From the NCBI GenBank assembly GCA_015485355.1, contig WFTQ01000070.1, positions 1-64,000 of the forward strand: 64,000 bases of DNA, read 5' to 3'. Positions 2 through 5,121 of this stretch are shown here, piece by piece. Source of the DNA: a bacterium (GTDB taxonomy: Bacteria; Calditrichota; Calditrichia; RBG-13-44-9; J042). Each line of letters begins with the position of its first letter. Position 1 is the first letter of the stretch. The notes under the pieces were generated by a model. That model was given only the letters and a program-made list of their open reading frames with translations, ran no database searches and was not told the DNA's origin. Made by a program: the position numbers and the translations under genes.

Positions 2-85
2 TACATTTACCGTCTGCATGCGGTGGCGCTGGAGGGCAAACCGCAGAGCTTCGAGGCGAAGCGGAAGATGCTGCTGGTGAAGTGA
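2..85 (+). CDS. 3' end of a secreted protein with FlgD/Por-type C-terminal sorting tail (partial)
   Basis: Frame 2 is open from the window edge to a TGA at 83-85 and encodes 27 residues ending KRKMLLVK. The pattern YxYRL, a short variable stretch, then a basic K-x-L-V-K end is typical of the last strands of FlgD-like or type IX-secretion sorting domains in FCB-group secreted proteins. That assignment is family knowledge applied to a very short piece. The gene is convergent with lysJ. The cargo cannot be named from what is visible. Confidence 0.55.
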   Translation, partial: YIYRLHAVALEGKPQSFEAKRKMLLVK

Positions 86-119: not shown

Positions 120-150
120 CCCCCCGGCGGCAAGGGCTGCGGCCGGGGGG
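120..150. terminator. GC-rich stem-loop between convergent genes
   Basis: A 9-bp perfect stem (120-128 with 142-150, CCCCCCGGC/GCCGGGGGG) has a 13-nt loop and lies between the convergent partial gene and lysJ. There is no T-run on either side, so it is a weak or factor-assisted bidirectional terminator at best. Confidence 0.4.
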
Positions 151-172: not shown

Positions 173-1333
173 TCATTTCTCATCCAGCACGGTGACAAGG
201 GCCTTCCCTACGGCGTCCAGTTCTTCATACGCAATCGTTAAGGGCGGCAGCAGTCGCAGAACGGTGCGGCCGGCCGGTAAAGCCAGTACCCCGGCGTCGA
301 GAAGCTTCAGTATGTATGGTTTCACCCGGGTGCGCAGCTCGATGCCGATCATCAGGCCCAGATGGCGGATCTCCCGGACCGGCTTCAGGTCGTGTTGTTG
401 CAGTTGATTAACCAGGTAATGGCCTTTCTCCCGGGCCTGTTTCTCCAGCCCATGAGCGATCATGAAATCGATGGCCGCATGGGCCGCGGCGCAGGCCAGC
501 GGATTGCCCCCGAAGGTACTGCCGTGGGTCCCCACCGGTAATCGAATCGTTTCGCGACACAGCACCGCCCCCATGGGGACTCCCCCTGCCATGGCCTTGG
601 CTAAACAGAGCATATCCGGCTGAAGATCGAAGTGGTGGCAGGCAAACATCTTCCCGGTGCGGCAAAATCCGGTCTGTACTTCGTCGATGATGAGCAGGAT
701 ACCTCTATCGCGGCACAGTTCCTGCACCTGTTTGAAATACGATGCGCCGCCGATGTGCACACCGCCTTCTCCCTGCACAATCTCCAGCAGCACCGCCGCG
801 GTCTGGTCACTGACTTTTTCCTTTAATTTTTCGAAGCGGTTGAAGGGGACGTGGTGAAATCCCGGAACCAGAGGTCCAAAGCCCTGCCGGTATCGGGGGT
901 TGTGGGTGGCACTCAGGGCTCCGAGGGTACGGCCGTGAAAGCCGCGCACGGCGCATATGATTTCTGTTTTTTGCGTGGTAAAACGCGCAAATTTAAGCGC
1001 CGCCTCAATGCTTTCGGCACCGCTGTTGCACAAAAACGCCCGGGTTAAGGTTTTGGGCGCAATGCCCACCAATTTTTCCAGCAGGCGGGCGCGGGCATCA
1101 TTGTAAAATATGCCCGAACAGGTCATCAGTCGCCGGGCCTGACGGGTCATGGCCTGGATAACCGCTTCGTTCCCGTGCCCGATATTGGCCACGCCGTTAC
1201 CGGAAACACAGTCGATGTATTCTTTGCCCTGTTCATCCCATACCCGGGCTCCTTGGCCCTTCACCAGAACGAGGGAACGCTTGGGATAAACATTCAGACT
1301 GTAGCGCTCTTCCAGCTGCCGATAGTCGCTCAT
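173..1333 (-). CDS. lysJ: LysW-aminoadipate/glutamate semialdehyde aminotransferase (LysJ/ArgD family)
   Basis: This 386-residue class III PLP aminotransferase should convert LysW-bound aminoadipate (or glutamate) semialdehyde to LysW-lysine (or LysW-ornithine), using glutamate as amino donor. The Schiff-base lysine is K246 in LCLAKAMAGG. The N-terminal GxGxxVWDxxGKxYIDCVSG block and the IIDEVQTGFCRTG block before the lysine are also present. Length is normal for the ArgD/LysJ family. The start overlaps the stop of lysZ by 4 bases (ATGA). It is the last gene of the lysW operon. ArgD and LysJ cannot be separated by sequence alone; the operon context favours a LysW-linked substrate. Confidence 0.9.
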   Translation of the reverse strand: MSDYRQLEERYSLNVYPKRSLVLVKGQGARVWDEQGKEYIDCVSGNGVANIGHGNEAVIQAMTRQARRLMTCSGIFYNDARARLLEKLVGIAPKTLTRAFLCNSGAESIEAALKFARFTTQKTEIICAVRGFHGRTLGALSATHNPRYRQGFGPLVPGFHHVPFNRFEKLKEKVSDQTAAVLLEIVQGEGGVHIGGASYFKQVQELCRDRGILLIIDEVQTGFCRTGKMFACHHFDLQPDMLCLAKAMAGGVPMGAVLCRETIRLPVGTHGSTFGGNPLACAAAHAAIDFMIAHGLEKQAREKGHYLVNQLQQHDLKPVREIRHLGLMIGIELRTRVKPYILKLLDAGVLALPAGRTVLRLLPPLTIAYEELDAVGKALVTVLDEK

Positions 1334-2121
1334 CGAATCACCGTTCCTTTTCCCTTTAGAGCATCCTTGATGGGATGGGGCCCCCGCCCATCACTAATGA
1401 TTACCGTCCGGGCACCCTGTTCAAATAATCGGCGTAAAGCCAGCAGTTTACGCTTCATTCGTCCGGTTACCCGAGCCTCCCATCCCTCCAGTTGCGTCGG
1501 AGAAAGGTGTTCCACCCACGAACGGGGATCCTGGTGATCCGCCAGCAATCCGGGCGCTTCAATCAGTTGAATAATCATTCGCGGTTGAAAGGCTTTGTGC
1601 AACTGGACGACGATGTCATCGTTTTCCGAGTTGACGGCCGTTTGATGTTCGTCGATGATAGGAACGGTCAACACGGGCGTGTAGCCGTGATCCAGAAGCC
1701 ATTGCAACAACTCCCGGTTGACCGACTGCGGTTTACCCGAAAAATCGCGTACAATACGCAAGCGGCCGTTTTGGCGAACACGGATGCCCCGATTGCGTCG
1801 CCCCTGGATAACCCGCCCGTCGACTCCCGACAGCCCCACGGCATTGATCCCATGCTGCTGACAGAGTTCCACTATGCGTTTGTTCTTCAGCCCGGCGTAG
1901 GCCATCAAAAGCAAATCCAGGGCCGCTTCGTCCGAATACACGCTGCTGTAACCCGAAACGGAGGTGAGCGTTTTACGGGGAAGCCCCAGAGCCTCGGCCA
2001 GTTGATCCCGCAGGGCATTGGCCCCATGGACGATGAGGAATGCCTCTTGCAATGCCGCCAAATCCGAAATGATGCCTTTCAGGTTGATATCCTTGCCGCC
2101 GCCTATTTTAATAAGCAACAT
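1330..2121 (-). CDS. lysZ: LysW-aminoadipate/glutamate kinase (LysZ, ArgB-like)
   Basis: This 263-residue amino acid kinase phosphorylates the side-chain carboxylate of the LysW-bound substrate. The N-terminus (MLLIKIGGGKDIN) is the phosphate-binding strand of the acetylglutamate kinase family, where LysZ proteins typically read KxGG. The C-terminal VIISDGRGPHPI segment is the nucleotide-binding end. The start abuts the stop of the upstream amidohydrolase with no gap, and a GAGGTG ribosome site lies inside that gene. Coupling to lysJ is by a 4-base overlap. Whether aminoadipate, glutamate or both are used is not decided by the sequence. Confidence 0.88.
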   Translation of the reverse strand: MLLIKIGGGKDINLKGIISDLAALQEAFLIVHGANALRDQLAEALGLPRKTLTSVSGYSSVYSDEAALDLLLMAYAGLKNKRIVELCQQHGINAVGLSGVDGRVIQGRRNRGIRVRQNGRLRIVRDFSGKPQSVNRELLQWLLDHGYTPVLTVPIIDEHQTAVNSENDDIVVQLHKAFQPRMIIQLIEAPGLLADHQDPRSWVEHLSPTQLEGWEARVTGRMKRKLLALRRLFEQGARTVIISDGRGPHPIKDALKGKGTVIR

Positions 2122-2757
2122 TTAGAACACCTCTATCGTTTGGTTCGGAAGGTTTTGCCATCCCGTTTCTCCGGGATAGGCTTCGGAACAGATGATCAAT
2201 GCCTCCGGTGTTTGTTTGATCCGCAGGGTAAAATAGTCGGGATTTTCGTTGAAGTAGCTGACCACATGGGCCCGTCGGGTGTCGGCCATTATGAAATTCA
2301 TGGCCCGCACATATCGGGTACGGTGCCGGATGCGGGTCACCGCCGTTTCGACGGCCTGCTGCAGATGCCCCCGATCAACCCGGCGGATCCACCGAAAGAG
2401 CTTTTCGGCCCCCGTGCGACCCGTTTCCCGAATGCGGACCCCTTGCAATTCCCCATTGAAAACAAACATATACCGGCCGTCGAAAAAAGGCATGTTGTTC
2501 TCCACCACAATGCCCTGGTCCCGGAAGGCGCTTCGAGCATGGGCAATCAGAAGACGGGTTTTTCCGAACTGATGCAGGTCGTCTTCCCATATGGGAGAAA
2601 TGTTCCGGTACCGTACCCAGCTTCCATTCAATAAAAATCCGCATCCCCATCCATGCCCCTGATATTCCCGGCTATATCGGGCGATGTGGGCGAATCGAGA
2701 AAGATGCGTTTCAATGTCAAATGCATGCGTGGATTTGACGAACAGCAATCGGCACAT
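2122..2757 (-). CDS. Class II (Ntn) glutamine-amidotransferase-fold amidohydrolase in the lysW operon
   Basis: A 211-residue single-domain member of the YafJ/EgtC-type class II amidotransferase family. Seen directly: nucleophile candidate C2 right after the initiator Met, a GWG motif near residue 37, R75 in IAHAR, N88-MPFF, and N101-G102 (FNG where most members have HNG). The usual S/T-D-T/S-E motif that holds the free alpha-amine of glutamine reads T115-G-A-E118, so the aspartate is missing. Stand-alone members such as EgtC and Dug3 hydrolyse gamma-glutamyl amides. The gene sits inside the LysW operon and no lysK is visible in the window. I infer possible release of product from the C-terminal glutamate of LysW. 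A good ribosome site (GCGGAGGAA) precedes the ATG. An ordinary glutaminase role remains possible. Confidence 0.85.
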   Translation of the reverse strand: MCRLLFVKSTHAFDIETHLSRFAHIARYSREYQGHGWGCGFLLNGSWVRYRNISPIWEDDLHQFGKTRLLIAHARSAFRDQGIVVENNMPFFDGRYMFVFNGELQGVRIRETGRTGAEKLFRWIRRVDRGHLQQAVETAVTRIRHRTRYVRAMNFIMADTRRAHVVSYFNENPDYFTLRIKQTPEALIICSEAYPGETGWQNLPNQTIEVF

Positions 2758-2812
2758 AGGCGATGTTTCCTCCGCTAATATGGGTGTTTCCGGCTTTTGG
2801 GGCTGTGCAACG

Positions 2813-3847
2813 TTACACCGGATGTAACCCGGGAAATTCCAGGCCCAGGGTTTCGGGGAAGCGATGCATAATGTTGAAGGCCTGTACCGCTTGTCCCGCA
2901 GCCCCTTTCATTAAGTTGTCCATGGCGCTGATGACCACCAGGCGATTCCCTCCGGCATCCCGTTCAAACCCGATGTCGCAAAAATTGGAACCAACCAGTA
3001 ATTTCGGTTCGGGGAGACGATAAATCCCTTTTCGTTCCTTCACCATCCGAATGAAGGGTTCTGACCCGTAAGCATTGCGATAAATCCGCCAAATGGATTT
3101 CTCATCCAGCGGCTGTTTCAGGAAGACATGGCAGGTCGCCAGAATACCGCGAACAATGCCCAGCGCGGTGGCGGATAGATGCACGGGATGTCCCAGCGTT
3201 TGCTCGATTTCTCCAATGTGCCGGTGCCCGGTGGGTTTGTAGGAGCGCACCACACCGTTACGCTCCGGATGGTGACTGGCCTCCGAGGGAGAGTTTCCGC
3301 CTTCGCTGGAGCCTCCCTTTACTTCCACCACGGTGCGCTCCGGATAAACCAGTTGCTGCTGGAACAGAGGATATAAAGCCAGGATGACGGCGGTGGCGTT
3401 GCAACCGGCGCCGGAAACATATCGCGCCTGCTGAATGTTCCGGCGGTACAGCTCGGGGATGCCATACACAAATTCGCCTAAAAGTTCCGGGTAGAGATGG
3501 GGCCGACCATACCACTTCTGGTAGGCCTCCGGCGTGGCCAGACGGAAATCGCCACTCAGATCGATGATGTTTCCGGCCAGCCGCTGAAATCGGGGCATCT
3601 GTTCCATGGATTTCCCGTGTGGTAGACACAGAAAGAGCGTGTCACAGGGTTCCAGTTCCGCCAGAGAGCAGAAGCGGGCCTGAGTCACCCCGCGCAGATT
3701 GGGGTGCACCCGGTACACCGGTTTGCCGGCAAAGCGTTCCGAGGTTACCTGCACGAGGGTGACCCGGGGATGAAACAGCAACAGCCGGAGTAGCTCGCCG
3801 CCGGTGTACCCGGAACCTCCCACAATCGACACCCGACGTTCAGCCAC
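2813..3847 (-). CDS. lysY: LysW-aminoadipate/glutamate 6/5-phosphate reductase (LysY, ArgC family)
   Basis: This 344-residue NADPH-dependent reductase of the ArgC/LysY family reduces the acyl-phosphate made by LysZ to the semialdehyde. The N-terminus carries the Rossmann motif [14 protein letters not shown]. The catalytic cysteine is C149 in GAGCNATA, and a PEVYW-type block appears as YGIPELYR just before it. The start is GTG at 3847, chosen because GGGGAGG lies 5 bases upstream and the protein then begins [17 protein letters not shown]. It overlaps the 3' end of lysX by 8 bases. A 55-base gap separates it from the next gene, the only gap of note in the operon. Confidence 0.9.
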
Positions 3848-4700
3848 CGCCGCCTCCCCGGGCTACAGCAATGACGTAATCCACAATCAGGCGATGAATG
3901 GGAATGCCGGTGGTGTGGATGCTGTTTTTAAATTCCATGGTGGAGTTGACTTCGTTGACCAGTAACCCGTTTTCGGTTTCGAACAGATCGATCGCCACGA
4001 CGCCGCCTCCCACGGCACGGGCGGCCTGCAACGATATGTGACGCAGGTCTTGGGTCAGGGGACAATTTTCCGCCTGTCCCCCCCGGGCGGTGTTGGTAAT
4101 CCAGTGCGCCGACCGACGGTAAATGGCCGCCACACATTCGTTGCCGATCACGAAACTGCGAATGTCACGGCCGCGCTTTTCGATGTACTCCTGGATATAG
4201 AAAATGGAATGGTGGTAGGAACCCAGAATGGTTTTGTGTTCCAAAATGGCCTCGGCCGCATCTCGATCGTTGACCTTGGCCAATAACCTTCCCCAGGAAC
4301 CCAGCGCCGGTTTTAACACCACCGGATAACCCAGCTCCTCCATGGCCTGGAGAGCCGATGTTTCGGTAAAGGCGATCTTCACCCGGGGCTGGGGAATGCC
4401 GCGACGGGACAGAGCCTCCGTGGTCCATAATTTATTGCCGCATACGAAGGCCACCCGGGAACTGTTTATACAACGCACCCCGGCGCTTTCGAACCAGCGC
4501 AACGCATGCAAGGCCCGCGAATGATTGATGCTGCGTTCCAGAAGAACGTCCAGAGAGAAACCATCTTGTCCCGGGGTCAAAATGAGCTGCCGATCGTCGA
4601 TCAAGATCAGTTCCACCCCGGGACGGTTGCGGAACTCCTGGATCAACAATTTTTCCTCTTTGCGGATCAAGGAATGTAATAGCCCGATCCTCATGATCAT
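3840..4700 (-). CDS. lysX: LysW ligase (LysX/ArgX, RimK-type ATP-grasp)
   Basis: This ATP-grasp ligase joins the alpha-amine of aminoadipate (or glutamate) to the gamma-carboxyl of the C-terminal Glu of LysW. The reading frame stays open upstream to 4853, but that part lies over lysW. The ATG at 4700 overlaps the lysW TGA (ATGA) and gives [13 protein letters not shown] and 286 residues, the family length; an ATG at 4694 is the alternative. Visible motifs are [14 protein letters not shown] (ATP binding) and [14 protein letters not shown] near the C-terminus, the substrate/metal loop typical of LysX. The C-terminus ends in a run of five glycines coded in the overlap with lysY. Confidence 0.92.
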
Positions 4701-4867
4701 TCTCCCCAGTCTTCTTCTTCCTGGGGGGCTTCCGCCAGCCGGATCGGGTGGGTGGAAACCACCTCCAGTTCCATGGCGCATTCGGGGCATTCCACAAGCT
4801 CCCCGGGAAGCACATCCGCCTCCAGTTGAATCCGGGCATCGCAAAGGGGACACAAACCGGTTAACAT
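4697..4867 (-). CDS. lysW: LysW amino-group carrier protein
   Basis: This 56-residue acidic carrier protein starts MLTGLCPLC. Two CxxC pairs (C6/C9 and C34/C37) form the zinc knuckle of LysW. The C-terminus is EDWGE, the family signature whose last glutamate carries the substrate through an isopeptide bond. A longer in-frame start exists at 4966, but it would include the terminator hairpin, while an AAGGAGGAGG site sits ideally before 4867. Promoter, leader and terminator lie directly upstream. This gene marks the whole operon as LysW-dependent lysine and/or arginine synthesis rather than the acetylated or succinylated routes. Confidence 0.95.
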
Positions 4868-4895: not shown

Positions 4896-4937
4896 AAAAA
4901 ATAAAAAAGCCTTTCCGGATCGGCTCCGGAAAGGCTT
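4896..4937 (-). terminator. Intrinsic terminator/attenuator in the lysW leader
   Basis: A perfect 13-bp stem (4937-4925 with 4919-4907) has a 5-nt loop and is followed on the minus strand by TTTTTTATTTTTT. It ends only about 29 bases before the lysW ATG, too close for a separate lysW promoter downstream. It therefore either attenuates the operon or ends a short RNA with read-through into lysW. Confidence 0.8.
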
Positions 4938-5121
4938 GGGGGTTCACAGAATTTTACGTTCAACATCAGGGTACGGAAGGATCACCTCTCCAGGAGCCGG
5001 GTGTACAACTGCGCTTGAGCCCATGCTTGGCCTTTATCCGCTTGGAAGTCTTGTGGCTCCTGTGTTGGTGCATCATCCGTTCCCTATGGTTCCACTACCT
5101 TTCGCCGTTTCGTATTTTAAG
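4938..5121 (-). ncRNA. Structured leader RNA of the lysW operon (candidate riboswitch, attenuator or small RNA)
   Basis: From the predicted start near 5121 to the terminator the minus strand holds no convincing reading frame. It folds by eye into one long rod at 4962-5091. Stems pair 5082-5085/4968-4971, 5076-5080/4973-4977, 5067-5070/4983-4986 and 5055-5061/4992-4998. They are separated by symmetric 1x1, 5x5 and 5x5 internal loops, with a 56-nt apical region at 4999-5054 that can fold further. I do not recognise it as a lysine riboswitch, T-box, SRP RNA or 6S RNA. The structure is seen; the function is inferred from position. Confidence 0.55.

Follow-up and report, generated by a model that had tools for sequence, protein, structure and literature searches.

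What cuts lysine off its carrier protein LysW in a bacterium whose lysW operon holds no LysK? The question arises from the window analysed here, 64,000 nucleotides from a member of the Calditrichota (assembly GCA_015485355.1, contig WFTQ01000070.1, positions 1 to 64,000), in which six closely packed genes on the minus strand (173-4867) follow each other in the order lysW-X-Y-Ntn-Z-J. The carrier gene lysW (4697..4867; TIGR01206 65.7 bits, PF21344) encodes a protein that ends in EEDWGE and was aligned to the solved LysW structures 3wwl, 5k2m and 3vpb; the same gene name is given to an unrelated transporter in PMC5584792. Downstream lie lysX, for the alpha-aminoadipate-LysW ligase (3840..4700; TIGR02144 343.9 bits, with a GSWGR motif and the Asn-Thr specificity motif in TNTARGG), lysY, for the argC-type LysW-aminoadipyl phosphate reductase (2813..3847; TIGR01850 382.8 bits), the gene that we call Ntn (2122..2757; ATG start, 211 aa), lysZ, for the LysW-aminoadipate kinase (1330..2121; NF010659 248.3 bits, above the cut-off of 223), and lysJ, for the LysW-aminoadipate semialdehyde aminotransferase (173..1333; TIGR00707 439 bits, and NF042418 418 bits, below its cut-off of 700). 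By reading frame coordinates, lysW/lysX and lysZ/lysJ overlap by 4 bases and lysX/lysY by 8, and the start codon of lysZ comes immediately after the stop codon of Ntn.

Base 1 of the window is the end of its contig, in a genome of 3.44 Mb that is split into 114 contigs and is 98.74% complete, and the lack of lysK in the window is therefore a weak argument by itself. The operon is closed before this edge by a terminator-like hairpin with a weak T tail 3' of lysJ (121..136, minus strand), taken from a consensus scan in which the number found equalled the shuffled expectation, and by a convergent reading frame. The end of that frame (3-83, plus strand, ..HAVALEGKPQSFEAKRKMLLVK) presumably resembles a type IX secretion C-terminus. 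A LysK hidden past the contig end was considered and rejected by searching the whole genome and 40 genomes of the phylum. The LysK model TIGR01902 gave no match above cut-off in the window's own genome, where three weaker M20 matches were found (best 68.3 against 163.1 bits), and none in the phylum genomes (0/40), so that the absence of LysK that the first-pass annotation had reported for the window holds well beyond it.

What kind of protein is Ntn? Only two family models match it, GATase_6 (21.2 bits, below the cut-off of 27) and the EgtC equivalog TIGR03442 (58.1 bits against a cut-off of 218.65), and the same search gave no homology to the M20 metallopeptidases (LysK, TIGR01902). An AlphaFold2 model built from 59 aligned homologues (mean pLDDT 92.2) has as its best solved match EgtC in complex with the natural substrate (4zfl; Z 25.9, rmsd 1.7, 198 residues), and after the EgtC chains come GlmS (Z about 22) and PurF glutaminase domains, with residues 2-211 covered. 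At the level of the predicted structure, a class II glutamine amidotransferase (Ntn) fold is thus confirmed. Together with the family scores of the neighbouring genes, this agrees with the first-pass annotation, which had seen a protein of this fold between lysY and lysZ. Residues C2, R3, H73, R75, N101, G102, G113, G116 and E118 do not vary among the 59 homologues, which come from several phyla, and C2, H73, R75, N101 and G102 are also invariant in an alignment of 16 homologues. The class II features are present, namely a Cys after Met, the oxyanion pair Asn-Gly (N101-G102) and the carboxylate-binding Arg (R75); hence the candidate nucleophile C2 and the arginine R75 pointed out at first in the single sequence are family-wide. 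The lys-operon proteins share the signature GR[IT]GAEK at 113-119. Where seven EgtC-like paralogues from outside lys operons read SDT, SDS, TDS or IDS, the lys-operon proteins read TGAE or IGAE, and the position of the usual Asp, kept by all seven paralogues, is Gly116 in 59/59 rows. The loss of this aspartate, also claimed at first, is therefore real. We take the Asp of this motif, from work on GlmS and PurF, to be the ligand of the free alpha-amine. EgtC, of ergothioneine synthesis, resembles Ntn in having the closest solved fold and in hydrolysing a gamma-glutamyl amide with an N-terminal Cys, but its substrate carries a free alpha-amine and it differs from the lys-operon proteins with their Asp-free GR[IT]GAEK. 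Dug3 and other glutathione-degrading amidases of the class II amidotransferase fold likewise share the fold and the gamma-glutamyl chemistry, but they act on small peptides and have no link to LysW.

Our answer, to which we give a probability of about 0.87, is that Ntn works as a cysteine amidase on the last residue of LysW and so takes over the task of LysK; strong support comes from comparative genomics. According to PMC10433800, the substrate is attached by its amino group to the EDWGE tail, through the gamma-carboxyl of the terminal Glu, and an E54A mutant of Natrinema ArgW is an arginine auxotroph. We infer the reaction, the role of each residue and the leaving group as follows. Removal of Met1 would expose Cys2, which would attack the gamma-amide carbon of the C-terminal glutamyl residue of LysW. 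The oxyanion would be stabilised by N101-G102 and the free alpha-carboxylate held by R75, while Gly116, invariant at the position where Asp is usual, would make room for the peptide chain that stands where a free alpha-amine would be. The leaving group would be L-lysine, from the LysW-gamma-Lys that LysX, Z, Y and J produce. If LysW is encoded with a C-terminal Gln, ammonia would be the leaving group, and the same enzyme would ready the carrier for ligation.

How tightly is Ntn linked to the LysW pathway? Strong homologues (E ≤2.2e-62) occur in 16/40 genomes of the phylum, and three weaker matches among 60 genomes searched look EgtC-like. At the phylum loci, window included, LysZ lies downstream in 16/16 and LysY upstream in 15/16, the locus with different genes upstream being that of G029. 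A profile scan of 84,980 species genomes gave 236 relatives, and the best 80 of these were kept; their record titles name Calditrichota, KSB1, Ignavibacteria, Melioribacter, Delta- and Gammaproteobacteria, Acidobacteria, Binatia and Woesearchaeota. As in the window, the neighbours of Ntn at these best 80 loci are lys genes: LysY is nearby in 76, LysZ in 74 and at least one of them in 80/80, and the missing neighbours are partly explained by contig ends. Three loci (L076, L102, L128) show no LysY within six to ten kilobases upstream of Ntn, and at four gammaproteobacterial loci (L115, L118, L130, L137) LysZ and LysJ were not found in the flanks examined. At these four, Ntn comes after lysY, with lysW and lysX in three, and the three LysW read are all Gln-ended. 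Among 385 related genomes Ntn (E ≤1e-20) is present in 18. LysX, whole or as a fragment, accompanies it in 17 of these; in the remaining one, G036, Ntn lies next to lysY/Z/J on a contig that is broken. Within the phylum, LysX is above cut-off in 12/40 genomes and fragmentary in G003, G029 and G033, all of them with Ntn; G004, with a LysX-like match of 137.6 bits, below cut-off, is without Ntn. The co-occurrence with the lysW operon, for which the first-pass annotation had suggested a survey, is therefore general, in 80/80 of the best loci and in 18/18 of the Ntn genomes among the 385. Some loci carry further genes: a second LysX-type ligase gene stands between lysY and Ntn at L121:9138-10019 (TIGR02144 319 bits), two frames are labelled LysX at L132, and in the archaea G443 (L173:2161-3045) and G439 (L171:474-1496) lysY and Ntn are separated by an unrelated gene, Fic-domain-like by eye, and by a hydroxyacid-dehydrogenase-like gene, respectively.

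Is lysine what these operons make? The operon might instead yield ornithine or another product, which Ntn would then free, and the presence of lysA in many of these genomes gives this reading its footing. Indeed, lysA is above cut-off in 11/16 phylum Ntn genomes, in 33/54 other Ntn genomes and in 8/13 LysK genomes. Since the DAP route thus often coexists, the product of the LysW route is not necessarily essential lysine; as a marker of dependence on the LysW route lysA was rejected, being as common in LysK as in Ntn genomes. The genes themselves speak for lysine. The window has the features of the LysW-dependent AAA pathway (the EDWGE tail of LysW, a LysX of AAA type, LysY, LysZ and LysJ), and in many Ntn loci a homocitrate synthase-like gene lies between lysW and lysX. 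Asn-Thr stands at the specificity site in 79/79 LysX aligned from Ntn loci, the pair of the AAA-specific SaLysX, as opposed to Gly-Phe in SaArgX (PMC10433800). In the archaeon AR15 (G394; CP010425.1, a complete chromosome), in the Woesearchaeon G407 and at locus L116, the operon comprises lysW, homocitrate synthase, both homoaconitase subunits, homoisocitrate dehydrogenase, lysX, lysY, Ntn, lysZ and lysJ (order lysW-S-T-U-HICDH-X-Y-Ntn-Z-J, family scores taken for L116), and AR15 and G407 have no lysA at E ≤1e-60. A product other than lysine is thus improbable, and even then the chemistry of release would be unchanged.

Do Ntn and LysK ever meet in one genome? LysX is present (E ≤1e-70) in 28 of the 385 relatives, 12 of the phylum and 16 others. 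LysK is above cut-off in 13 of the 16, the exceptions being G133, G271 and G368, which were identified as LysK-free before the Ntn profile was run on them. G133 and G271 turned out to carry diverged Ntn homologues (133.6 and 129.1 bits) unlinked to the lys operon, and the G133 protein, the one of the two that was read, carries the IGAEK motif; these genes (L175, L176) encode about 215 aa and adjoin msrA-like and ABC transporter genes. G368, which is 79% complete and has its contig broken in lysY, has neither enzyme. Overall, the 28 genomes comprise 14 with Ntn, 13 with LysK, none with both and one with neither (Fisher p 7e-7, not corrected for kinship). Archaea show the same pattern: among 194 relatives of AR15, 11 have LysX, and once three found through Ntn are left out, the other eight comprise four with Ntn, three with LysK, none with both and one with neither. 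The last of these, archaeon G442, has no more than a weak EgtC-like match and a fragment of an M20 protein. Pooled, the 36 LysX genomes not picked by Ntn divide into 18 with Ntn, 16 with LysK, none with both and two with neither, again uncorrected for kinship. On the LysY tree there are at least five changes between the Ntn and LysK states, and the LysK archaeon G440 falls inside a starred clade with AR15, G439 and G443, which have Ntn. LysK is also above cut-off in none (0/50) of a further set of genomes picked by Ntn, which leaves out 30 of the best 80 loci, some as repeats of phylum genomes; weaker M20 matches (E ≤1e-25) occur in four of these. As most of the genomes are drafts, absence of LysK is only as reliable as their completeness.

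The two enzymes also share a place. LysK lies in the same operon, adjoining lysJ or lysZ, in G087, G334, G370, G150, G287 and G297, and likewise in Deinococcus sp. NW-56, where it is annotated [LysW]-lysine hydrolase. LysK (M20, TIGR01902) and Ntn therefore agree in proposed reaction, pathway step and operon position and exclude each other in the genomes tested, whereas their folds are unrelated, LysK being a metal enzyme and Ntn having an N-terminal cysteine. The anti-correlation with lysK that was also to be surveyed is borne out, no LysX genome tested having both. From gene content, the operon Ntn is very probably what many bacteria and some archaea without LysK use to cut lysine off LysW.

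A further line of evidence comes from the carrier. LysW could be read at 69 Ntn loci. Directly before the stop codon, 54 of these loci encode Glu, 15 encode Gln and none encodes any other residue, under a search pattern that permitted any last residue; both carriers of archaeon G443 end in Gln. All 16 carriers of 15 LysK genomes are Glu-ended, as are the two plasmid LysW records, the only two obtained, and the three solved LysW. In one LysK-type archaeon (G565, L215) the tail reads EEDFGE, not EEDWGE. The difference in counts (Gln in 15/69 Ntn loci against 0/15 LysK genomes, p 0.06) is not significant alone, and the stronger point is that the repeated changes of the LysW terminus go only to Gln: the LysY tree has at least 12 Glu/Gln changes, five of them forced by well-supported (starred) branches. 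A Gln-ended LysW would be unusable by LysX until its amide is hydrolysed. Because Gln at the C-terminus already is a gamma-glutamyl amide, the alternation points to a gamma-amide hydrolase at the LysW C-terminus that would both deamidate LysW-Gln and free lysine. This alternation in Ntn loci is new here; read from the encoded termini, it lends independent support to a gamma-glutamyl-amide activity on the LysW C-terminus and likely adds a second activity of Ntn, LysW deamidation. Ntn is thus annotated as a putative [LysW]-lysine hydrolase and LysW deamidase. The initial proposal, that Ntn is adapted to a C-terminal gamma-glutamyl amide on LysW and replaces LysK, appears very likely in the light of co-occurrence, exclusion, the lost Asp and the alternation.

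A similar pair of activities is found in Dop. Pup may be encoded with Gln, and Dop deamidates Pup and depupylates (PMC8599861). As proposed for Ntn, a single enzyme there hydrolyses the C-terminal gamma-glutamyl amide of a small protein, both as Gln and as a conjugate; Dop differs in having the glutamine synthetase fold, in freeing proteins and not a free amino acid, and in lacking homology to Ntn. We consider it probable that the Ntn family consists of Dop-like dual enzymes, which would deamidate Gln-ended LysW, then cut lysine off in each cycle, substitute for LysK across many bacteria and archaea and leave the last residue of LysW free to drift between Glu and Gln.

Could Ntn be only a maturase that turns LysW-Gln into LysW-Glu, another enzyme freeing lysine? 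Gln-ended LysW is found only alongside Ntn, and an M20 protein below the LysK cut-off could serve as the hydrolase, such proteins being common (37/40 phylum genomes). By their sequences, these matches look to us like YgeY-type proteins of about 408 aa and ArgE-type proteins of Bacteroidota of about 358 aa. The idea that one M20 protein is confined to Ntn genomes was examined by eye and rejected, since the sub-cut-off matches also occur in genomes without LysX. A maturase would be needless at the Glu-encoding majority of Ntn loci, which keep Ntn nonetheless, and it would not account for LysK being missing wherever Ntn is present. AR15 and G407, moreover, yielded no M20 candidate even in a loose search. 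We therefore hold the maturase reading to be quite improbable. A regulatory or proofreading hydrolase of misloaded amino acids (e.g. LysW-gamma-Glu), with lysine freed by another enzyme, would use identical chemistry and fit the operon linkage, but it leaves unexplained both the lack of LysK in every Ntn genome tested and the genomes without any M20 candidate, and we give it very little credence. An ordinary glutaminase subunit supplying ammonia, a very unlikely reading, would suit the class II fold but hardly the loss of the alpha-amine-binding Asp for an invariant Gly, nor a pathway in which, to our knowledge, no step uses ammonia.

If Ntn is indeed the amidase that releases lysine, the final step of LysW-dependent lysine synthesis would be accounted for in Calditrichota, in Ignavibacteria and Melioribacter relatives and in KSB1, as well as in several lineages of Proteobacteria and Acidobacteria and in archaea with small genomes, none of which has LysK in the genomes tested. 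There would then be two unrelated ways of detaching an amino acid from its carrier protein, and Pup/Dop would have a natural counterpart in which the carrier may be encoded with Gln or Glu. According to PMC5317091, the genome of Caldithrix abyssi carries LysWXZYJ together with Hcs at a single locus (Cabys_3146-3153), and its lysine pathway either may be incomplete or may include a non-orthologous displacement. Searches of 5.39 million open papers found nothing on LysW with a glutamine amidotransferase, EgtC or a C-terminal glutamine, in line with the initial remark that no description of such a LysK replacement was known.

The region upstream of lysW has features of its own. No riboswitch scored above the Rfam gathering thresholds there, only sub-threshold matches. 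In the predicted RNA fold, the two ends of a Lys/Arg-rich reading frame of 36 codons (4966-5076, minus strand, MMHQHRSHKTSKRIKAKHGLKR...) pair with each other. The frame is followed by a terminator-like hairpin of 13 pairs (4907..4937, minus strand) 40 bases upstream of lysW, a possible attenuator. Frame and hairpin together possibly form a lysine-codon attenuator or a structured leader. Short basic reading frames of a similar kind precede lysW at L070, L072 and L091.
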